A stretch of DNA of 39,081 bases. Source: an uncultured Methylibium sp. GTDB taxonomy: Bacteria; Pseudomonadota; Gammaproteobacteria; Burkholderiales; Burkholderiaceae_C. Below the pieces are notes generated by a model, which ran no database searches, was not told the DNA's origin, and saw only the letters and a list, made by a program, of their open reading frames with translations. Position 1 is the stretch's first letter, and each line of letters starts with the position of its first letter. Positions 3,050 to 34,282 of the stretch are shown here, in pieces. Location of the stretch: assembly GCF_902826655.1 (NCBI RefSeq), contig NZ_CADEFR010000034.1:1-39081 (forward strand), in the 5' to 3' direction. The position numbers and the translations under genes were made by a program.

Positions 3050-4002
3050 TGCCGCTGCCCCGTGTCCTGCAGAACCTGCCGCTGCCGATCATCGGCTCGC
3101 CGCTGTTCATCATCAGCAACCCCAAGCTGGTGATCGAGCAGTGCAAGGCCGGCGTCGTCGGCGCGATGCCCTCGCTCAACGCCCGACCGGCCGAGCAACT
3201 GGACGAGTGGCTGGCCGAGATCACCGAGACGCTCGCGGCCTACGACAAGGCCCATCCGGAGCGGCCGTCCGCGCCGTTCGCGATCAACCAGATCGTCCAC
3301 AAGAGCAACGACCGGCTCGAGCACGACATGCAGGTCTGCGCCAAGTACAAGGTGCCGATCATCATCACCTCGCTCGGCGCGCGCACCGACGTCAACGATG
3401 CAGTGCATGCCTGGGGCGGCGTCGTGCTGCACGACATCATCAACAACGCCTTCGCGAAGAAGGCGATCGAGAAGGGCGCCGACGGCCTGATCGCCGTGGC
3501 CGCGGGCGCCGGCGGCCACGCGGGCGTGAAGAGTCCGTTCGCGTTGATCCAGGAGATCCGCGAATGGTTCGACGGACCCGTGGCGCTCAGCGGTGCGATC
3601 GCCCACGGCGGCGCCGTGCTGGCGGCGCAGGCGATGGGGGCCGACTTCGCGTACATCGGTTCGGCCTTCATCGCCACCGACGAGGCGCGCGCCGCCGATG
3701 CCTACAAGCAGGCCATCGTCGAGAGCAGCAGCGATGACATCGTGTACTCCAACCTCTTCACCGGCGTGCACGGCAACTACCTCAAGCCGTCGATCCGCAA
3801 CGCCGGACTCGACCCGGACAACCTGCCCGAGAGCGATCCGAGCAAGATGAACTTCGGCGGCGACGGCGCCAAGAAGGCCTGGAAGGACATCTGGGGCTGC
3901 GGCCAGGGCATTGGCGCGGTCAAGCAGATCGTGCCGGCGCGCGAGCTGATCGAGCGGCTGCGCCGCGAATATCAGTCGGCCCGATCGCGCGTCGCGGCTT
4001 GA
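3049..4002 (+). CDS. Nitronate monooxygenase / 2-nitropropane dioxygenase family protein
   Basis: This is an FMN-dependent TIM-barrel enzyme of 317 residues. Family members oxidise alkyl nitronates (for example propionate 3-nitronate), though many paralogues have unknown substrates. Visible motifs are PIIGSPLFIISNP at the N-terminus, AFAINQIVHKS, the glycine-rich phosphate loop GADGLIAVAAGAGGHAG with the candidate catalytic His157, and ALSGAIAHGGAVLAAQAMGA followed by DFAYIGSAFIATDEA, which contribute to FMN binding. The ATG shares a base with the TGA of the upstream acyl-CoA dehydrogenase, so the two are coupled. Genes of this family often accompany acyl-CoA dehydrogenases, where the role may be electron transfer or detoxification rather than nitronate oxidation. 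The family is certain, the substrate is not. Confidence 0.92.
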   Translation: MPLPRVLQNLPLPIIGSPLFIISNPKLVIEQCKAGVVGAMPSLNARPAEQLDEWLAEITETLAAYDKAHPERPSAPFAINQIVHKSNDRLEHDMQVCAKYKVPIIITSLGARTDVNDAVHAWGGVVLHDIINNAFAKKAIEKGADGLIAVAAGAGGHAGVKSPFALIQEIREWFDGPVALSGAIAHGGAVLAAQAMGADFAYIGSAFIATDEARAADAYKQAIVESSSDDIVYSNLFTGVHGNYLKPSIRNAGLDPDNLPESDPSKMNFGGDGAKKAWKDIWGCGQGIGAVKQIVPARELIERLRREYQSARSRVAA

Positions 4003-4021
4003 GTCGACCGACGCGCCGTCG

Positions 4022-4345
4022 CTAGCCGGGCGCTGCCGCTTCGACCTCGAGGTGGGCGTCGCAGCCGCTGCCGGCCGCGATCCAGCGGCTGGCGCGCCGC
4101 TGCAGCCAGCGGGCCCAGATCGCCGGCCCGCCCGGGCGCCGCGCACCGGTCAGCAGTCCGCAGCGATAGCGTCGCTGCGCGTCGCTCCACTCGAGCAGGC
4201 GGCAGGCGCCGCGTCGCCGCAGCGTCAGCAGCATGGCCGCCGGGCAGGGCTCGGCGAGGCAGCACACGCCGCAGCCGTTGCAGGCCGCACCCGGCGCCGG
4301 CTTGGCCGGCGCGTCGGGGCGAATGACGATGACGTGGCGCTGCAT
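4022..4345 (-). CDS. Small Cys-rich protein with CxxCxxCC cluster, function unknown
   Basis: A 107-residue protein beginning MQRHVIVIRPDAPAKPAPG. The recognisable part is CNGCGVCCLAEPCP near residues 22-35, a CxxCxxCC-x4-C arrangement like the metal-binding motif of YkgJ-type proteins or a partial ferredoxin cluster. Further cysteines follow (CRLLEW, CGLLTG, a late CDAH). The C-terminal half contains RWLQRRASRWIAAGSGC, with no membrane segment. An upstream GTG (4369) would add eight residues; the ATG at 4345 was preferred, but neither has a strong ribosome binding site. It lies downstream of the H-NS gene on the same strand and converges on the nitronate monooxygenase gene 19 bp away. Metal or Fe-S binding is inferred from the cysteines only. 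Confidence 0.7.
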   Translation of the reverse strand: MQRHVIVIRPDAPAKPAPGAACNGCGVCCLAEPCPAAMLLTLRRRGACRLLEWSDAQRRYRCGLLTGARRPGGPAIWARWLQRRASRWIAAGSGCDAHLEVEAAAPG

Positions 4346-4374
4346 GCGCCCAGTGTCGGGCGCAATCACGCCCG

Positions 4375-4401
4375 ACGATCGCCGGAAATGCTGGCGATCG
4401 T
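4375..4401. repeat. Perfect 9-bp inverted repeat after the H-NS gene
   Basis: ACGATCGCC (4375-4383) and GGCGATCGT (4393-4401) form a perfect 9-bp stem with a 9-nt loop, placed directly after the H-NS stop (4408) and before the start of the Cys-rich gene. There is no T-run on either strand, so it is not a standard intrinsic terminator. It may stabilise the 3' end of the H-NS mRNA. Confidence 0.55.
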
Positions 4402-4407
4402 GCCGTC

Positions 4408-4752
4408 TCAGACCGCGAAGTCGTCGAGCTTGCGGCCGCTGGCCAGGGCCGCCTTGAGCCAGTTGGGCTGAAGGCCTCGACCGCTCCAGCTGTCGCCGGT
4501 GGCGGCATTGCGGTACTTGGCAGCGACCTTGCGGCCGGCCGTCGTGCCCTTGCTCTTCTTCGTGCCGGGGCGCCCGGTCGCCTTGTTGCCCAGTTCGGCC
4601 AGCGTCACGCCGTGTTCGGCCATCAAGGCCTTGATCTTGGCGACGGCGGCCGTGTGTTCACTGCGGCGCGCGGTCTCGATCTGCTGGGTCAGCGCGGCGG
4701 CCTGCTTCTCGAGCGCCGCCTTCTGTGCCATCAGGTCCTGGTAGCTGGCCAT
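4408..4752 (-). CDS. H-NS family nucleoid-associated protein
   Basis: A 114-residue DNA-binding protein of the short beta-proteobacterial H-NS (Bv3F-like) type. Residues 1-45 form an N-terminal coiled coil for oligomerisation (DLMAQKAALEKQAAALTQQI). A basic linker follows (GRPGTKKSKGTTAGRK). The C-terminal DNA-binding domain has KYRN at 79-82, GDSWSGRGLQPNWLKAAL at 86-103, including the SGRGLQP minor-groove loop that corresponds to the Q/RGR core of H-NS. These proteins silence AT-rich or foreign DNA and shape the nucleoid. The start is well supported by GGAGGAG upstream of the ATG. A TAGAAT -10-like hexamer lies at 4801-4806 on the minus strand, so the gene probably has its own promoter after the terminator of the iron-binding-protein gene. 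Confidence 0.93.
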   Translation of the reverse strand: MASYQDLMAQKAALEKQAAALTQQIETARRSEHTAAVAKIKALMAEHGVTLAELGNKATGRPGTKKSKGTTAGRKVAAKYRNAATGDSWSGRGLQPNWLKAALASGRKLDDFAV

Positions 4753-4846
4753 CCTGGGATCTCCTCCGGTTATCGATCGGGTGGTCGAAGTGCCGAAGAG
4801 ATTCTAGGTCGCCCCGCCGAATATCCAGATGCGACAGCCCAAGAGA

Positions 4847-4868
4847 AAACCCGGCCGTGGCCGGGTTT
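4847..4868 (-). terminator. Rho-independent terminator of the ferric-iron binding protein gene
   Basis: AAACCCGGCC (4847-4856) and GGCCGGGTTT (4859-4868) form a perfect 10-bp inverted repeat. On the minus strand it ends in a T-rich tract (TTTTCTCTT). It lies 19 bp beyond the stop codon of the gene ending at 4888, as expected for its terminator. Confidence 0.85.
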
Positions 4869-4887
4869 CGTGCGAGCCCTGCAAATA

Positions 4888-5934
4888 TTACTTGTAGCCG
4901 ACGCGGTCCAGTATCTGCTGGACTGCCACCGAGTTGGCGCCGACCACCGAGATCGGAATCAACTCGGCCTTGAACGGTCCCATCGCGTCGAGCGCCGGAT
5001 TGGCAAGCTTCACGCTCGGCACCGCAGGGTATTCGTTGTTGCCGTTCGCGAAATAGGCCTGGGCGGGATCGCTGGCCAGATACTCGAGGAACTTGACGGC
5101 GGCATCCCGGTTCTTCGCGTTCCTGGCGATGGCGCCGCCGGCGATGTTCACGTGGGTGCCCCAGCTGTTCTGGTTGGGGAACACGACGGCGACCTTTTCC
5201 ACGACGGCACGGTCCTCGGGTTTGTCCGAGCGCAGCATGCGGGCGAGGTAATAGGTATTGGTCAGGCCGATGCCGCATTCGCCGCTGGCCACGGCCTTGA
5301 TCTGGTCGGTGTCGCCACCCTTGGGTTCGCGCGCCATGTTGGCGACCACGCCCTTGAGCCAGGTTTCGGCGCCGGCCGCACCGAGGTGCTCGTACATCGC
5401 GCCGAACAGGGACAGGTTGTAAGGGTGCGAGCCGGAACGGGTGCAGACCTTGCCCTTGTTCTTCGGGTCGGCCAGTTCCTCGTAGGTGTCGACGTCCTCG
5501 CGCTTGACCGACATCTTGTTGTAGACGACGACCCGCGCGCGCGTCGAATAGCCGAACCACTGCGAGCCCGACCCGCTGTCCTTGCCGCGCAGCTTGGCGG
5601 GGATGCGCGCTTCCAGGGTGGCGGACTTCAAGGGCTGGAACAGCCCCTCGGCCTCGGCGCGCCACAGGCGCGCGGCGTCGACCAGCAGGATCACGTCGGC
5701 CGGGCTGGAAGCGCCTTCGCTGCGCAGGCGCGCCAGGATGCCGGCGTCGTCGGCATCGACGCGATTGATCCTGATGCCGGTCGCCTTGGTGAAGTCGGCG
5801 TACAGCGCCTCGTCGGTCTGGTAGTGGCGGGCCGAGTAGAGGTTGAGCACCTGCTCCTGGGCGAGGGCGCTGAAGCCGGCCAGCAGGCCGACGGCGGCCA
5901 CGGTGGCGCGCCGGATCGAACGAAGGGAAAGCAT
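4888..5934 (-). CDS. Fe(3+) ABC transporter periplasmic substrate-binding protein
   Basis: A 348-residue periplasmic ferric-iron binding protein of the FbpA/FutA class, delivering Fe3+ to an inner-membrane ABC importer. The signal peptide is residues 1-25 (LSLRSIRRATVAAVGLLAG, cleavage after SALA). The mature start QEQVLNLYSARHYQTDEALY matches the family, and the iron-ligating tyrosine pair appears as TNTYYLAR (Tyr228-Tyr229). The start at 5934 was chosen because AAGGAG lies 6 bp upstream. An in-frame ATG at 5949 has no ribosome binding site and would place that AAGGAG inside the coding region. A Fur-box palindrome and a TATACT -10 lie upstream, so iron-repressed expression is expected. No permease or ATPase gene is adjacent, which makes it an orphan binding protein. 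Confidence 0.93.
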   Translation of the reverse strand: MLSLRSIRRATVAAVGLLAGFSALAQEQVLNLYSARHYQTDEALYADFTKATGIRINRVDADDAGILARLRSEGASSPADVILLVDAARLWRAEAEGLFQPLKSATLEARIPAKLRGKDSGSGSQWFGYSTRARVVVYNKMSVKREDVDTYEELADPKNKGKVCTRSGSHPYNLSLFGAMYEHLGAAGAETWLKGVVANMAREPKGGDTDQIKAVASGECGIGLTNTYYLARMLRSDKPEDRAVVEKVAVVFPNQNSWGTHVNIAGGAIARNAKNRDAAVKFLEYLASDPAQAYFANGNNEYPAVPSVKLANPALDAMGPFKAELIPISVVGANSVAVQQILDRVGYK

Positions 5935-26455: not shown

Positions 26456-28477
26456 CTAGTCGAGCGCGACGCGCGGCGCGACGCCGCGCATCAGGCGCTC
26501 GGCATCCTCGTCGAAGCGGAAGGCCTTCAGGAAGTCGTCGACGCCGTAGCCGGGCCGCTGGCGCCGTACCGACGCCGTCAGCGTCCGGGCCTCGGCGACG
26601 CGCCCGGCCAGCGCCAGGCTGTGGGCCGCGAAGCTGACGACGTGCACGTGGGCATTGGGCCGGGCCGCGGCCTTCATGGCCCAGTCGGCCGCTTCCTCGT
26701 GGCGGCCCAGGCGCATCAGGGCCATCGCGCGCGAGGCCAGCATCGCGAACAGCATCGGGTCGAAGGGGCTGAGGTCGCGCGAATGGTCCGAGGCGCGGAT
26801 CGCGGTGCGCGGATCGCCCGACTGCGCGTGCACGAAGGCCAGCGTGTAGTGGCCGAGCGCGAAGTTGGGGCTCAGCGCGACGGCGGTGTCCAGCTCGGCC
26901 AGCGACTCGCCGATGCGGCCGCGCAGCCATTGCGCGCGGCCCAGCGCCCAGTGGCTGGCCGGGTCCAGGTCGTCGGCCAGCAGGCCCTGGGACGCGCTGC
27001 GGTAGGCGGCCTCGACGGCCGGCTCGCGGTCGGACCAGCCGAGGAAGGCGTCCTGGAAGTGCGTGAACGACAGCCCGGCATAGGGCCGCGCGAAGCCCGG
27101 GTCCAGGCGCACGGCCTGCTCGAAGTAATGGCGCGCCTGCACGTTGTCGTCGCCGTTGAAGCGCACCATGTGCCACAGCCCGCGGTGGTAGGCCTCCCAG
27201 GCGTCGAGCGAGTTCGGCGCCTTCAGGATCGCGCGATTGCGCTCGGCGACCTCGATCTGGCTGGCGATGGAGCCGACGATGCGGTTGCCGATCTCGTCGA
27301 GTACCTCGAAGGGATCGCCGAGCCGGGTCGCGAAGACCTCGGCCCAGACGATGCGGCCGCTGCGCGTGTCGGCGAGCTGCACGTTCACGCTGACCTGGCC
27401 GGCGTCGCGCCGCAGCGAGCCGCTGGCGACGTAGTCGACGTCCAGCGCGCGGCCGGCGTCCTCGGCACCGACGTTGCGCGCATCGAGCGCGAACACCGTG
27501 CCCTGGGCGATCACGAACACGCTGCGCAGCTTGGCCAGCCGCGTGATGACGTCGTGCACCAGGCCGTCGGCCAGCCCGCCGCGCGCCGCGACGCCGCGCG
27601 CCTGCTCGGCGAAGGGCATGACCGCGATCGAGGCGCGGCGCTGCAGCGCGGGCGCGACGGCCTCCGCGATGGCGATCGCCGGGACCGGGTCGGGCACCTG
27701 CAACACCTGCGCCGTCAGGCCCGGCGCATGCCGCAGGCGCGCGGCCCGCCAGGCGTGCCCGAGCGGCGCCCAGTCCTGGCCCTCGGCTTCGAACTGGCGC
27801 GCGGTGGCGGCCAGGTGCTCGTCGCCCTCGCGCAGGCGGCCGCGTCGCGCCAGCGCGTCGAGCATGGCCTCGTGGGCGCGGCGCTCGAACGGGGCGAGCT
27901 GCAGCCACTGCTCCAGCACGGCGAGGGTCTCGTCGTCGGTCGGATCGAGCATGCGCGTCAGCTGCTCGAGGATCGCGATGCGCGCCGCGCGGTAGTGCCG
28001 CCGGCGCCCGATCAGCCAGGCGCTCCAGGGCGTGCTGCGCTCGATGTCGACGCCTTCGAGGAAGTCGCCGCCGAAGCCGGCCGCCAGGGTTCGCAAGCTC
28101 CCCGCGTCGAGCGTCGCCGGCCCGGCGTGCAGCGCGGCGTCGATCGCCAGCACGTCGACGGCCAGACCCTCGCGGTCCAGCCGCAGCGCGTCGCCTTCGG
28201 CCAGCAGGCGCGGCCGGCCGGGGGCGTCGAGCAGCGCGCGCGCCTTGCTCAGGGCCCAGCGCAGCTCGCCGCGCGGGTCGTTCGGCAGGTCCCACAGCAG
28301 CTCGCACAGCTGGCGGCGCGCCACGGCCTGGGGGGTCAGCGCCAGGTAGGCGATCAGCGCCCGCACCTTGCGCGACGGCGGCAGCGCCACCGGCCGCCGG
28401 CCGCGCGACAGGGTCAGAGGGCCCAGCAGATTCAGCTGCAGGTCGGATTCAACGGGCATTTCCACGATGGCTTCCAT
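26456..28477 (-). CDS. Large regulator: winged helix, BTAD-like, TolB-like and TPR regions
   Basis: A 673-residue protein, no named gene. Residues about 10-100 are an OmpR/SARP-type winged helix (LQLNLLGPLTLSRGRRPVAL, RKVRALIAYLALTPQAVARR, LCELLWDLPNDPRGELRWAL). Residues about 105-250 resemble a bacterial transcriptional activation (BTAD) region. A TolB-like domain follows at about 285-410 (RRASIAVMPFAEQARG, GLVHDVITRLAKLRSVFVIA, YVASGSLRRDAGQVSVNVQL). The C-terminus is TPR repeats (ARHYFEQAVRLDPGFARPYA, ASHWALGRAQWLRGRIGESL). The architecture matches regulators annotated as SARP/CadC-like or 'TolB-like/TPR' signalling proteins. The start was placed at ATG 28477; ATG 28459 is an alternative. 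It is divergent from a methyltransferase gene 90 bp away and probably controls the methyltransferase-haloperoxidase-hydrolase genes. Confidence 0.85.
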   Translation of the reverse strand: MEAIVEMPVESDLQLNLLGPLTLSRGRRPVALPPSRKVRALIAYLALTPQAVARRQLCELLWDLPNDPRGELRWALSKARALLDAPGRPRLLAEGDALRLDREGLAVDVLAIDAALHAGPATLDAGSLRTLAAGFGGDFLEGVDIERSTPWSAWLIGRRRHYRAARIAILEQLTRMLDPTDDETLAVLEQWLQLAPFERRAHEAMLDALARRGRLREGDEHLAATARQFEAEGQDWAPLGHAWRAARLRHAPGLTAQVLQVPDPVPAIAIAEAVAPALQRRASIAVMPFAEQARGVAARGGLADGLVHDVITRLAKLRSVFVIAQGTVFALDARNVGAEDAGRALDVDYVASGSLRRDAGQVSVNVQLADTRSGRIVWAEVFATRLGDPFEVLDEIGNRIVGSIASQIEVAERNRAILKAPNSLDAWEAYHRGLWHMVRFNGDDNVQARHYFEQAVRLDPGFARPYAGLSFTHFQDAFLGWSDREPAVEAAYRSASQGLLADDLDPASHWALGRAQWLRGRIGESLAELDTAVALSPNFALGHYTLAFVHAQSGDPRTAIRASDHSRDLSPFDPMLFAMLASRAMALMRLGRHEEAADWAMKAAARPNAHVHVVSFAAHSLALAGRVAEARTLTASVRRQRPGYGVDDFLKAFRFDEDAERLMRGVAPRVALD

Positions 28478-28567: not shown

Positions 28568-29416
28568 ATGAATGCATTGTCCGCCACCCAGGCGCCCGCC
28601 AAGCCGGCCGCCGCCCCTGATTTCGCCGCGATCAAGACCCGCCAGCAGGCGGCCTGGTCGTCCGGCGACTACGCCATCGTCGGCACCACGCTGCAGATCG
28701 TCGGCGAGACGCTGTGCGAGTCGCTCGACCTGCGCGCCGGCGAGCACGTGCTCGACGTCGCCGCCGGCAACGGCAACGTCTCGCTGGCGGCCGCACGCCG
28801 CTGGTGCGAGGTCGTGTCCACCGACTACGTGCCGGCGCTGCTGGCCCGCGGCCGCGAGCGTGCCGCCGCCGAGCACCTGGAGATCGAGTTCCGCGAGGCC
28901 GACGCCGAGGCGCTGCCCTTCGCCGACGCCGGCTTCGACGCCGTCGTCTCGACCTTCGGCGTGATGTTCACCCCCGAGCCGAAGCGCGCCGCCGCCGAGC
29001 TGCTGCGCGTGTGCCGTCCCGGCGGCCGCATCGGCCTGGCCAACTGGACGCCCGAGGGCTTCATCGGCCAGCTGTTCAAGACCATCGGCAAGCACGTGCC
29101 GCCGCCGGCCGGCGTCGAGTCGCCCGCGCTGTGGGGCACGCGCGACCGCATCGAGCAGCTGTTCGGCACGCAGTCGGTCGCGATCCGCACCGAGACGCGG
29201 CAGTTCTGCTTCCGCTACCGCTCGCCGCAGCACATGCTGGACATCTTCCGCGGCTACTACGGCCCGGTACTCAAGGCCTTCGCGGCGCTCGACGCGGCCG
29301 GGCAGGAAGCCCTGGCCGACGACATCCTGGCCCTGATCGCGCGCTTCAACCGTGCCAAGCACGGCGCGATGGTCGTCGCCAGCGACTACCTCGAAATCAT
29401 CGTCACCAAGCGCTGA
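28568..29416 (+). CDS. Class I SAM-dependent methyltransferase
   Basis: A 282-residue cytoplasmic methyltransferase of the UbiE/Methyltransf_11 type. Motif I is VLDVAAGNGNVSLAAARRW (61-79) and motif II region STDYVPALLARGRERAA. The acidic ligand-contact stretch IEFREADAEALPFADAGFDAV and post-motif FGVMFTPEPKRAAAELLRVC are present, followed by RPGGRIGLANWTPEGFIGQL. The substrate is unknown; small-molecule methylation is likely from the family. AAGGAG lies 8 bp upstream of the ATG. It is the first of three co-directional genes (methyltransferase, haloperoxidase-like protein, hydrolase) with gaps of 18 and 17 bp, consistent with an operon divergent from the large regulator. Confidence 0.92.
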   Translation: MNALSATQAPAKPAAAPDFAAIKTRQQAAWSSGDYAIVGTTLQIVGETLCESLDLRAGEHVLDVAAGNGNVSLAAARRWCEVVSTDYVPALLARGRERAAAEHLEIEFREADAEALPFADAGFDAVVSTFGVMFTPEPKRAAAELLRVCRPGGRIGLANWTPEGFIGQLFKTIGKHVPPPAGVESPALWGTRDRIEQLFGTQSVAIRTETRQFCFRYRSPQHMLDIFRGYYGPVLKAFAALDAAGQEALADDILALIARFNRAKHGAMVVASDYLEIIVTKR

Positions 29417-29434: not shown

Positions 29435-31078
29435 ATGATGATCCACTTCCAGAGAATCCGCTGGCTGGCCCCCGTGCTGGCCCTCTTCGCGGCGCAGGCC
29501 CAGGCCGACGCCATCACCGACTGGAACCAGAAGGCCGGCGAGCTGATCGCCGACGCCAAGCTGGGCACGCCGCCGGCCGTGCGCGTGATGGCGGTCGTGC
29601 AGACCGCCGCGCACGATGCGGTGCAGGGCGCGCAGCGGCGCAAGCCGTCCGATCCGGCGGCCGTCGACGCCGCGATCGCCGCAGCCAACCGCGCGACGCT
29701 GGTCAAGCTGCTGCCGGCCCAGGAGGCCGGGATCGCCGCGGCCTACCAGGCCGCGCTGGCGAAGATCGCCGACGGTCCCGCGCGGGCGGCCGGCATCGCC
29801 GCCGGCGAGGAAGCCGCCGCCGCGGTGCTGGCGGCACGTGCCGGCGACAGCGTCAGTGCGCCCGACAGCTTCCGGCCGCGCGCCGTGCCGGGCGGCTACG
29901 TGCCGACCGCCGCGGTCGCGGCCTCGCAGTGGCCACAGCGCAAGCCCTGGCTGATGTCCGGTGCCGCGCAGTTCCGGCCGATCGCCCCGCCGGCCCTGAC
30001 CAGCGCCCGCTGGGCCCGCGACTACAACGAGATCAAGGCCCTGGGCGGCAAGGACGGCTCGCAGCGCAATGCCGAGCAGACCGACATCGCGCGCTTCTGG
30101 GAGTACTCGCTGCCGGCGATCTACCACGGCGTGGTGCGCTCGGTGGCCCTGGCGCCGGGACGCGACGTGGCGCGCAACGCACGCCTCTACGCCGCGGTGG
30201 CCCAGGCGATGGACGACGCGATGATCGCGGTGTTCGACGCCAAGTACCACTACAACTTCTGGCGTCCGGTGACGGCGATCCGCAACGGCGATGCCGACGG
30301 CAACCCGGCCACCGCACCCGAGGCCACGTGGGCGTCGTTCATCGATACGCCGATGCACCCCGAGTACCCCAGCGCGCACAGCATCCTGGCCAGCTCGGTC
30401 GGCACGCTGCTGCAGGCCGAGGTCGGCGCGGCGGTGATGCCCGAGCTGTCGACGGCCAGCCCGACCGCCAAGGGCGCGACGCGGCGCTGGAAGAAGGTCG
30501 AGGACTTCATCCAGGAAGTCGGCGACGCGCGCATCTACGACGGCGTGCACTTCCGCTTCTCGACCGAGGTCGGCACGGCGATGGGCCGGCAGATCGGTGA
30601 ACTGGCGGCCGCGCGGCACCAGCTCGCGGTCGTGCCGGTGCAGGTCGAGCTGCAGCCGAAGGAGACGCCGCGCTTCGTCGAGCGCGTCTCGGCGCGCGGG
30701 GTGCAGGTCTACGAGTGCCGCAGCGGTGGCGCCGCGGCGCCCGGCTGGGTCTTCGTCGCGCCCGAGGCGCTGCTCTACGACGCGCGCGGCGACGAGGTCG
30801 GCAAGCACGATGCCGGCCCGCACTGGGCGGCGGCCGACGGCAGCCGCATCGTCGGGCAGGTCCAGGCGCGCGCCGAGGCGCCGGTCGGCGGGGCGATCCC
30901 CTGGCTGCTGCTGCAGGCCCGCTCGGTCGGGACCGAGGGGCGATTCGCCGACGTGACCAGCGTGCAGCGCGTCAACACGCTGGGCGGCACCGCGCCGGCG
31001 CGCGGTTGCGACACCGCGAGCCTGGGCGCGACGGCCCGCGTGCCGTACACGGCCGACTACGTGCTGTTCGCGTCCTGA
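29435..31078 (+). CDS. Vanadium-dependent haloperoxidase-like protein fused to DUF3455
   Basis: A 547-residue exported protein. The signal peptide is about residues 1-24 (core WLAPVLALFAAQAQA). Residues about 25-390 are a vanadium haloperoxidase/PAP2-type helical domain with all the expected vanadate-pocket residues: Lys270 and Arg277 in KYHYNFWRPVTAIR, Ser313-Ala314-His315 in HPEYPSAHS, and Arg366 and His372 in RIYDGVHFRFS. Residues about 400-547 are a separate DUF3455 domain (GVQVYECRSGGAA, PGWVFVAPEALLYDARGDEV, GKHDAGPHWAAADGSRIVGQ, ending CDTASLGATARVPYTADYV). The two are usually independent proteins, so this fusion is notable. The enzyme may oxidise halides in the periplasm or act as a phosphatase; the sequence alone cannot decide. 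AAGGAG precedes the ATG. Confidence 0.9.
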   Translation: MMIHFQRIRWLAPVLALFAAQAQADAITDWNQKAGELIADAKLGTPPAVRVMAVVQTAAHDAVQGAQRRKPSDPAAVDAAIAAANRATLVKLLPAQEAGIAAAYQAALAKIADGPARAAGIAAGEEAAAAVLAARAGDSVSAPDSFRPRAVPGGYVPTAAVAASQWPQRKPWLMSGAAQFRPIAPPALTSARWARDYNEIKALGGKDGSQRNAEQTDIARFWEYSLPAIYHGVVRSVALAPGRDVARNARLYAAVAQAMDDAMIAVFDAKYHYNFWRPVTAIRNGDADGNPATAPEATWASFIDTPMHPEYPSAHSILASSVGTLLQAEVGAAVMPELSTASPTAKGATRRWKKVEDFIQEVGDARIYDGVHFRFSTEVGTAMGRQIGELAAARHQLAVVPVQVELQPKETPRFVERVSARGVQVYECRSGGAAAPGWVFVAPEALLYDARGDEVGKHDAGPHWAAADGSRIVGQVQARAEAPVGGAIPWLLLQARSVGTEGRFADVTSVQRVNTLGGTAPARGCDTASLGATARVPYTADYVLFAS

Positions 31079-31095: not shown

Positions 31096-31932
31096 ATGCC
31101 GCTCTTCCAGCACGGCGAACTGCAGGTCGACTGCGAGGTGGCGGGCGACGGCCCGCCGGTGATCCTGGTCCACAGCTCGGCCGGCAGCAATCGGCAGTGG
31201 CGCAAGCTGTCGGCGCTGCTGGCCGGCCGCTGCCGGGTGCTGGCGCCCAACCTGCGCGGCTGCGGCGGCAGCACGCCGTGGACCGCGGCGCGGCGCCAGA
31301 CGCTGGCCGATGCGGCCCAGGTCGTGATGGCGCTGTGCGCCTCGCTCGACGGGCCCATCCGCCTGGTCGGGCACTCCTGGGGCGGGGCGGTGGCCTTGTG
31401 GGCGGCGCGCGCGCTCGGCCCGCGGGTCTCGCACCTGGCGCTGCACGAACCGATGCTGGCCGGCCTGCTGCACGCGCACGAGGACCCGACGGCCGGCGAC
31501 GTCGTGGCGCTGCACGCCGACGTGCGGCGCCACGGCGCGGCCGGCGACTGGCTCGCGCTCGGCCGGCGCTTCACCGACTACTTCAACGGCGACGGCAGCT
31601 GGGACGCCAGCACCCCCGAGCGCCGCGAGGCGATCGCCGCGGCGCTGCCGCCCAACGTGCACGAATGGCAAGCCTGCGCGCAGCCGATGCGTGCGGACAG
31701 CTTCGACGGCATCGCGGCGCGCTGCCTGTTGCTGCGCGGGCCGCAATCGCCGAGGGCGCTGCGCGCGATGACCGAGCTGCTGCGGCAGCACTTCGCGCAC
31801 TGGCGGCTGGAGGATCTGCCCGAAGGCGGGCACATGGCGCCGCTGACGCATGCGGAGGTCTTCAACCGGCGCGTCGTCGACTTCCTGGAGTTGCCGGTGC
31901 CGACGAGGGTGCCCGTGCCGATGAACGCGTAA
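31096..31932 (+). CDS. Alpha/beta-fold hydrolase
   Basis: A 278-residue alpha/beta hydrolase. The oxyanion strand is PPVILVHSSAGSNRQWRKLS (20-39), the nucleophile elbow is GHSWGGAVALW (Ser94 in GHSWG), and the late His is in LPEGGHMAPLTH (about 251). An acid residue would lie near ARCLLLRGPQSPRAL. The fold covers esterases, haloperoxidase-like perhydrolases and C-C hydrolases, and the substrate is not readable. Interestingly, some cofactor-free 'haloperoxidases' are alpha/beta hydrolases of this kind. ATG 31096 has GGGAG upstream. It is the third gene after the methyltransferase and the vanadium-haloperoxidase-like gene and ends at 31932, followed by a hairpin at 31954-31973. Confidence 0.9.
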   Translation: MPLFQHGELQVDCEVAGDGPPVILVHSSAGSNRQWRKLSALLAGRCRVLAPNLRGCGGSTPWTAARRQTLADAAQVVMALCASLDGPIRLVGHSWGGAVALWAARALGPRVSHLALHEPMLAGLLHAHEDPTAGDVVALHADVRRHGAAGDWLALGRRFTDYFNGDGSWDASTPERREAIAAALPPNVHEWQACAQPMRADSFDGIAARCLLLRGPQSPRALRAMTELLRQHFAHWRLEDLPEGGHMAPLTHAEVFNRRVVDFLELPVPTRVPVPMNA

Positions 31933-32054: not shown

Positions 32055-33311
32055 TTGAAGATCGTTCAGGCACTCAGGACCGAGGGCGATCCCGTGATCG
32101 CCGATGCGCGCGACGCGCTGCGTCGTCGCATCGCGGCCGTGCGGGCGCGCTCGCTGGCGATCGCCGCGCCGCTGGGCGCCGAGGACCAGTGCGTGCAGTC
32201 GATGCCCGACGCGAGCCCGACCAAGTGGCATCTCGCGCACACCAGCTGGTTCTTCGAGACGGTCGTGCTGCAGCCGCACGAGCCCGGCTATCGCGTGCAC
32301 GACGCGCGCTACGCCTTCCTCTTCAATTCGTACTACGAGTCGCTCGGTCCGCGCCATCCGCGGCCGCAGCGCGGACTGCTGACGCGGCCGACGCACGACG
32401 AGGTGCAGGCCTACCGCCGGCACGTCGATGCAGCGCTCCTGGCCTTCGTCGTGCGCGCCGACGCGGCGACCTGGGCCGCGGCCGCGCCGCTGATCGAGCT
32501 GGGCTTGCAGCACGAGCAGCAGCACCAGGAGTTGATGCTGACCGACGTCAAGCACCTGCTGTCGCTCAACCCGCTGAGGCCGGCCTATGCGGCGACGGCG
32601 CCGGACGGCATTGCGCTGCATCCGGCCGCGATCGCCGACGGGCCGATGCGCTGGGTCGATCGCGCCGACGGCATCGTGCAGATCGGTGCGGCCGATGGCC
32701 CGGCCTTCGCCTTCGACAACGAGCGGCCGCGGCACCGCGTGCTGCTGCCGGCGCATCGCATCGCCGAGCGCCCGGTGAGCTGCGCCGACTACCTGGAGTT
32801 CATGGCCGACGGCGGCTACCGCCGGCCCGAGTTGTGGCTCAGCGACGGCTGGGCCGCCGTGCAGTCCGAGGCCTGGCGTGCGCCGCTCTACTGGAGCGAG
32901 GCCGAGCCGGCCGGCTGGCAGGTCCACGGCCTGCAGGGCCTGCGGCCGCTGCGCCTCCACGAGCCGGTGTGTCACCTGAGCTTCTACGAGGCCGCGGCCT
33001 ATGCCGCCTGGGCCGGTGCGCGCCTGCCGACCGAGGCCGAGTGGGAGTCGGCCGCGGCGCAGGGCCTGCTGACGGCCACCGGCGAGGTCTGGGAGTGGAC
33101 GCGCTCGTCCTACGACCCCTATCCGGGCTTCGAGCCGCTGTCCGGCGCGGTGGCCGAGTACAACGGCAAGTTCATGATCGGCCAGCTGGTGCTGCGCGGC
33201 GGCAGCTGCGCCACGCCGCGGGGCCATGCGCGACCGAGCTATCGCAACTTCTTCCCGCCCGGCGCGCGCTGGCAGTTCTCGGGCCTGCGGCTGGCGAGGG
33301 ATGCAGGATGA
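32055..33311 (+). CDS. egtB: Ergothioneine biosynthesis protein EgtB (iron-dependent sulfoxide synthase)
   Basis: EgtB joins hercynine (trimethyl-histidine) to a cysteine-type thiol with O2 and non-heme iron, the key C-S bond step of ergothioneine synthesis. The 418-residue product has an N-terminal DinB-like domain with HLAHTSWFFE (His59, His62) and the iron motif HEQQHQE (His153, His157, Glu159). The C-terminal FGE-sulfatase domain has NERPRHRVLLPAHRIAERPV, LSFYEAAAYAAWAGARLPTE and VLRGGSCATPRGHARPSYRN. The start TTG 32055 was chosen for the GGAGG five bases upstream; an upstream TTG at 32007 would extend it 16 residues without a ribosome binding site. The stop overlaps the egtD start in an ATGA overlap. 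Whether gamma-glutamylcysteine or cysteine is the co-substrate cannot be told. Confidence 0.93.
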   Translation: MKIVQALRTEGDPVIADARDALRRRIAAVRARSLAIAAPLGAEDQCVQSMPDASPTKWHLAHTSWFFETVVLQPHEPGYRVHDARYAFLFNSYYESLGPRHPRPQRGLLTRPTHDEVQAYRRHVDAALLAFVVRADAATWAAAAPLIELGLQHEQQHQELMLTDVKHLLSLNPLRPAYAATAPDGIALHPAAIADGPMRWVDRADGIVQIGAADGPAFAFDNERPRHRVLLPAHRIAERPVSCADYLEFMADGGYRRPELWLSDGWAAVQSEAWRAPLYWSEAEPAGWQVHGLQGLRPLRLHEPVCHLSFYEAAAYAAWAGARLPTEAEWESAAAQGLLTATGEVWEWTRSSYDPYPGFEPLSGAVAEYNGKFMIGQLVLRGGSCATPRGHARPSYRNFFPPGARWQFSGLRLARDAG

Positions 33312-34282
33312 CGGGGCCGCAGCGGCTCGTCCATCCCGCAGCGGCCGCCAGTGCGTCCGTGGTCAGCAGCGACTTCGCTCGCGAGCTGCTCGCCGGCCTG
33401 GCGCGGCGGCCGCGCAGCGTGGCGCCGAAGTTCTTCTACGACGCGGCCGGCTCGGCGCTGTTCGACCGCATCTGTGCGCTGCCCGAGTACTACCCGACGC
33501 GCACCGAGCTGGCCCTGCTGGCCGCGAAGGCCGGCGAGATCGCGGCCTGCATGGGCGCGGACGCCGAGATCGTCGAGTTCGGCGCCGGCTCCAGCCGCAA
33601 GATCCGCGTGCTGCTCGAGGCGCTGAAGCGCCCGCAGCGTTTCGTGCCGATCGACATCTCGGCGGACCACCTGCAGGGCGCCGCGTCCGCGCTGCGGCGC
33701 GACTTCCCCGGCCTCGAGGTGCTGCCGATCGGCGGCGACTTCACGCGGCCGCTGGCACTGCCGGCGCCGCTGGGCCGGCCGCGCGTCGGCTTCTTCCCGG
33801 GCTCGTCGATCGGCAACTTCACGCCCGACGAGGCGGTGGCCTTCCTGCGCCAGGTGTCGGAGCTGCTGCGCGGCGGCGGGCTGCTGGTCGGCGTCGACCT
33901 GGTCAAGGACCCGGCGCTGCTGCACGCCGCCTACAACGATGCGGCCGGCGTCACCGCGGACTTCAACCTCAATCTGCTGGCGCGCGCGAATCGCGAGCTG
34001 GGCGCCGACTTCGACCTGGCCGCCTTCGCGCACTACGCGTTCTACGCGCCGCAGCGGCAGCGCATCGAGATGCACCTCGTCAGCCGGCGCGAGCAGCGCG
34101 TGCACTGCTGCGGCCACGACTTCGACTTCGCCGAGGGCGACGCGATCCACACCGAGAACTCGTACAAGTACAGTGTCGACGGCTTCCGCGCGCTGGCTTC
34201 GCAGGCCGGCTACGAGCCGGGGCCGGCGTGGATCGACGCGCAGCGGCTGTTCAGCATCCACTGGCTGGCGCTGCCCGCCTGA
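33308..34282 (+). CDS. egtD: L-histidine N-alpha-methyltransferase EgtD
   Basis: EgtD trimethylates the alpha-amino group of histidine with three SAM to make hercynine, the precursor used by EgtB. The 324-residue protein has the family blocks PKFFYDAAGSALFDRICALP and YYPTRTE (about 40-66), the SAM loop AEIVEFGAGSSRKIRVLLEA (87-105), PIDISADHLQGAASALRRDF, FFPGSSIGNFTPDEAVAFLR, GGLLVGVDLVKDPALLHAAY and the C-terminal HTENSYKYSVDGF. The start is ATG 33308, overlapping the egtB TGA by four bases; the much longer open frame running upstream from about 31937 is antisense-like noise over egtB. No egtC, egtE or egtA is adjacent. Confidence 0.96.
   Translation: MTGPQRLVHPAAAASASVVSSDFARELLAGLARRPRSVAPKFFYDAAGSALFDRICALPEYYPTRTELALLAAKAGEIAACMGADAEIVEFGAGSSRKIRVLLEALKRPQRFVPIDISADHLQGAASALRRDFPGLEVLPIGGDFTRPLALPAPLGRPRVGFFPGSSIGNFTPDEAVAFLRQVSELLRGGGLLVGVDLVKDPALLHAAYNDAAGVTADFNLNLLARANRELGADFDLAAFAHYAFYAPQRQRIEMHLVSRREQRVHCCGHDFDFAEGDAIHTENSYKYSVDGFRALASQAGYEPGPAWIDAQRLFSIHWLALPA

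Follow-up and report, generated by a model that had tools for sequence, protein, structure and literature searches.

What might DUF3455, a domain for which we know of no function, contribute when it is covalently joined to a vanadium haloperoxidase (VHPO)-like enzyme? The question is raised by one gene in a 39,081-nucleotide stretch of DNA, contig NZ_CADEFR010000034.1 (assembly GCF_902826655.1) of an uncultured Methylibium sp., the whole of which is referred to here as the window. The product of this gene is a VHPO-type domain with a complete set of pocket residues, followed in the same protein by DUF3455. A single open reading frame (ORF) with an ATG start and 547 residues spans exactly the limits given for the fused gene in Table 1. 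An NCBIfam search assigned the fused protein to no family. The portions of the literature searched, where DUF3455 is named in just nine papers, yielded no account of a VHPO-DUF3455 architecture.

Analysis of the first domain with Pfam revealed a match to VCPO_2nd (PF22778) at residues 247-394 (33 bits, cut-off 27), and the predicted structure has a VHPO fold across both helical bundles. The pocket positions are occupied by K270, R277, S313, A314, H315, R366, and H372. Thus, the six expected VHPO residues, Lys, Arg, Ser, His, Arg, and His, are all present, each at the position assigned to it by an earlier, sequence-only reading of this DNA. Over the whole first domain, the best solved relative among the matches listed, by sequence and by model, was the vanadium-dependent iodoperoxidase of Zobellia galactanivorans (PDB 4cit, 4usz), whose six pocket residues align with those of the fused protein. 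The 4cit chain differs in having Gly at the position of Ala314, and DUF3455 was not among its matches listed in the PDB profile search. Proteins of the same enzyme family also occur on plasmids of Streptomyces, Phaeobacter, and others; the 30 tblastn matches listed show 31-40% identity, and 25 of them are annotated as vanadium-dependent haloperoxidases. However, no single place in any of the 124 plasmid records covered 80% of the query, so the fusion was not seen there. The PAP2 profile fell just below its gathering cut-off (26.5 vs 27.2 bits), and the domain thereby narrowly failed the assignment to the PAP2 acid phosphatases. The first domain might instead be a VHPO homologue of phosphatase-like or NapH3-like type, catalyzing another reaction, with DUF3455 serving that chemistry; we consider this unlikely.

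In an alignment of 37 family members, K270, R277, R366, and H372 were invariant and H315 was nearly so. The pocket Ser was more variable, being replaced by Cys in 13 of the 37 and by Ala in one. It was retained in all 12 fused or DUF3455-linked members, as compared to 11 of the 25 others. Eight additional fused or linked genes brought the first count to 19 of 20, an association that is not absolute and a count that ignores relatedness. The exception, L230, is DUF3455-linked and shares with a set of VHPO relatives, L041, L044, L053, and L138 among them, a PCAHC motif in place of PSAHS, which changes the vanadate-binding Ser to Cys and introduces a second Cys.

The second domain was described in the sequence-only reading as a complete DUF3455 spanning roughly residues 400-547. 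Indeed, Pfam matched DUF3455 (PF11937) at residues 416-545 with 104 bits (cut-off 25), covering positions 9-156 of the 157-position profile. Two cysteines, at residues 428 and 525 in this protein, were invariant across 42 aligned DUF3455 proteins. The structure model suggests that DUF3455 is an eight-stranded barrel of the allene oxide cyclase/dirigent type. Foldseek support for its likeness to solved members of this type was weak, and none of the 42 proteins matched a dirigent or allene oxide cyclase profile at E ≤ 1. Similarly, neither a sequence-profile match nor more than a weak Foldseek match linked the domain to the cyclases/Diels-Alderases PloI4 and AbyU, pyocyanin demethylase, dirigent proteins, or allene oxide cyclase. 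Unlike all of these, DUF3455 is here joined covalently to a VHPO. A PDB profile search with DUF3455 returned aldehyde dehydrogenase alone (E 0.17).

The predicted fold brings to mind an oxidase-dirigent fusion, in which the vanadium enzyme would make an activated halogen or radical and the attached barrel would steer it to one defined product. Dirigent proteins of plants do this for radicals that separate oxidases generate. The appeal of the idea is that a plant dirigent protein likewise pairs with an oxidase (PMC8136895). It is based on a predicted resemblance of fold together with the fusion, and we regard it as distinctly unlikely.

The N-terminus of the fused protein resembles a Sec signal peptide ending in AQA|D by inspection, and the protein is probably exported; the sequence-only reading had also noted a signal peptide. 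That reading had further proposed that DUF3455 may supply the enzyme with substrate or with its localization, an interpretation that is partly supported. Holding of a substrate or product is retained below as a conditional proposal. The view that the two domains are joined chiefly for localization was rejected, as most unfused relatives look exported themselves.

We then counted the sequences that carry both domains. Among 27 relatives from a genome scan, six were fused (L033-L038), and a separate DUF3455 gene lay in the fetched flanks of four (L043, L051, L056, L058); some of these flanks were short, so linked genes may have been missed. Within the family to which the window belongs, 399 genomes were searched and 30 contained the enzyme clade at E ≤ 1e-60; seven of these 30, the window's genome included, had the fusion in a survey using 1.5-kb flanks. 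One of the seven, L180, repeats the locus already counted as L036. A further fused gene, L149, comes from another family. In total, the scanned genomes contained 13 distinct fused genes (the window, L033-L038, L149, and L223-L227). Three more separate linked genes (L228, L229, L230) bring those to seven. At one fused locus, L175, the fused gene is followed after approximately 0.9 kb by a second, partial DUF3455 match (4023-4268; 66% identity).

The fusion might have arisen by chance loss of a stop codon between adjacent genes and have no functional meaning. Fusion would indeed be a small evolutionary step, since the separate VHPO and DUF3455 genes of L228 and L229 overlap by 4 bases. Also in favor of this explanation, the fused group includes two members with no DUF3455 part. 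However, the fusion recurs (6/27 relatives; 7/30 clade genomes), which excludes a chance origin, and none of the 13 distinct fused genes contains an internal stop codon, on which basis sequencing error or chance read-through was rejected. In addition, the DUF3455 parts of the fused relatives are 61-68% identical to that of the window and evolve with a nonsynonymous rate (dN) below the synonymous rate (dS), and the linked genes are found in several orders. By recurrence, this explanation is largely refuted, and we consider it highly improbable.

Both domains showed dN < dS in all six pairs tested (for L225-L226, 0.062/0.281 and 0.065/0.427). The linker (residues 395-412) varied in length among the fused relatives, and its predicted local distance difference test (pLDDT) score was below 50 at residues 399-408. 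Linker dN was above that of either domain in five of the six pairs; for L034-L038, it was not above that of the DUF3455 part. These linker counts covered just 8-20 codons.

When a tree was built from the VHPO domain, seven of the eight fused rows included grouped with the unfused L039 and L050 (support 91/93, not starred), while L149 stood apart from this group. By eye, the C-terminal tail of L039 resembles the fusion linker, as if DUF3455 had been lost. In the DUF3455 tree, whose bootstrap was not settled, all 13 fused domains clustered with the stand-alone L043, L165, and L169 in a single starred group, 16 rows in size. In two genomes from the family of the fused G057, the VHPO and DUF3455 genes are separate; the distance between them is 16 kb in G284 and large in G187. 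At the level of the order, DUF3455 occurred in 52 of 399 genomes, VHPO (E ≤ 1e-20) in 20, and both in nine (Fisher p = 3e-4, rising to 1e-3 when the genome of the window is left out; phylogeny ignored). A phylum-wide link was rejected: in a draw of 398 genomes, DUF3455 was present in 32, at 34 places, and none of the 20 places mapped had a VHPO gene by custom gene calls.

Table 1. Fused gene, its parts, and adjacent genes in the window.
Feature	Coordinates	Strand	Basis or remark
Fused VHPO-like + DUF3455 protein, probably exported, 547 aa	29435..31078	+	ORF, Pfam, model
Probable Sec signal peptide, residues 1-24	29435..29506	+	by inspection; relatives have comparable hydrophobic N-termini
VHPO-like domain, residues 27-394, with K270, R277, S313, H315, R366, H372	29513..30616	+	
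Variable linker, residues 395-415	30617..30679	+	length and dN variation, low pLDDT
DUF3455 domain, residues 416-545	30680..31069	+	Pfam
Class I S-adenosylmethionine (SAM) methyltransferase, conserved neighbor	28568..29416	+	ends 18 bases before fused gene
Alpha/beta hydrolase, recurrent, not constant neighbor	31096..31932	+	starts 17 bases after fused gene
Divergent regulator-like gene	26456..28477	-	TPR repeats by Pfam

The gene neighborhood was compared using gene calls that, in the relatives' loci, came from a custom script rather than a published gene finder. VHPO and DUF3455 recur either fused or as neighbors, usually beside the same methyltransferase. A homologue of the latter was found in 20 of the 27 relatives (in L049 at just 31% identity) and upstream of all 13 fused genes (in L038 by tblastn). 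The regulator-like gene was found in nine of the 27, with a weak match in L051, and near 12 of the 13 fused genes; its N-terminal part appears BTAD/SARP-like by eye only, as Pfam BTAD was unmatched. Other loci have as neighboring regulator an AraC/Cupin_6 type or a BTAD/NB-ARC/TPR protein. The hydrolase was present in seven of the 27 relatives and matched downstream of two of the 13 fused genes, those of the window and of L034, where it corresponds to the latter portion of a longer gene call. Where the genes are separate, the order is methyltransferase-VHPO-DUF3455-hydrolase in L043, hydrolase-methyltransferase-DUF3455-VHPO in L051 and L229, and methyltransferase-DUF3455-hydrolase-VHPO in L056. 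Scans for promoters and terminators gave no signal above shuffles.

Several other genes lie at these loci. In the window, egtB and egtD of ergothioneine biosynthesis (32094-34282; above NCBIfam cut-offs) start 161 bases after the hydrolase. They were rejected as part of the system, as an egtB-like match occurred in only L051 of the 27 relatives. An OsmC-like gene adjoins the VHPO gene in L056 (8494-9030), and another is divergent from the methyltransferase gene in L165 (5476-6000). Between DUF3455 and the hydrolase in L058, a 379-residue protein (3911-5050) with homologues in L052 and L149 weakly matches AurF, a diiron N-oxygenase, below cut-off.

The VHPO/methyltransferase setting is one of two DUF3455 lineages. 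The DUF3455 tree divides into groups of 24 and 33 rows (support 100/100): the former contains all 14 rows with sigma factor neighbors and the latter the VHPO/methyltransferase setting. Of 41 DUF3455 loci fetched (40 of the 57 places in the order-level genomes, plus one more), 15 contained a gene for an extracytoplasmic function (ECF) sigma factor and 14 one for an RskA-type anti-sigma factor. These neighbors are SigK-like and RskA_C proteins, respectively, and in L162 the pair lies several genes from DUF3455. Many stand-alone DUF3455 genes among loci L115-L174 and L234-L253 adjoin such SigK/RskA modules; in contrast, none of the 13 fused genes does in the mapped flanks. In the phylum draw, both genes were beside DUF3455 at 10 of the 20 mapped places, all 10 of the same class, and at none of the 10 places outside that class. 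The stand-alone, sigma-linked setting looks like an envelope-stress module. In a study of Delftia (PMC7725335), two DUF3455 genes are reported as approximately 20-fold up on soybean roots at day 7 versus day 2.

This second setting bears on a different explanation, namely that DUF3455 has a protective or sensing function in the envelope, binding or scavenging a reactive product rather than guiding the reaction, and in the fusion shields the cell from the enzyme's oxidant. Consistent with this are the sigma and anti-sigma neighbors, a lipobox-like motif near the start of 20 of the 41 stand-alone DUF3455 proteins (pattern only), and the OsmC-like genes of L056 and L165. Nevertheless, the sigma-linked DUF3455 proteins form a clade of their own with full support, so what they do may not apply to the fusion, and we judge the protective explanation to be rather unlikely.

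Our tentative answer, to which we give somewhat less than an even chance, is that the fused protein is an exported two-domain enzyme combining vanadate/peroxide oxidation with a DUF3455 barrel that holds the substrate or product. The first domain would bind vanadate in the periplasm and, with hydrogen peroxide, either oxidize a halide or activate a substrate directly. The barrel would keep an organic substrate or reactive product near the oxidizing site, such that the oxidative step could be directed or the product captured. The methyltransferase, and the alpha/beta hydrolase where present, may act on the same small molecule earlier or later. The fused or neighboring pair in relatives hints that DUF3455 works on what the enzyme acts on, and the location of other DUF3455 genes near ECF sigma and anti-sigma genes suggests that its general role in the envelope is to bind a small molecule that is reactive or hydrophobic.

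The fusion and its neighborhood connect one DUF3455 lineage with a methyltransferase as well as with a well-understood family of oxidative enzymes, while a cavity is suggested by the predicted barrel. If the oxidase-dirigent idea, which we regard as unlikely, is true, DUF3455 as a whole would be an unrecognized dirigent/cyclase-type barrel family in bacteria and perhaps in fungi, on which some papers also carry the name DUF3455 in their titles. If the barrel directs the reaction, the fused protein would also offer a compact system in which to study selective oxidation or halogenation.
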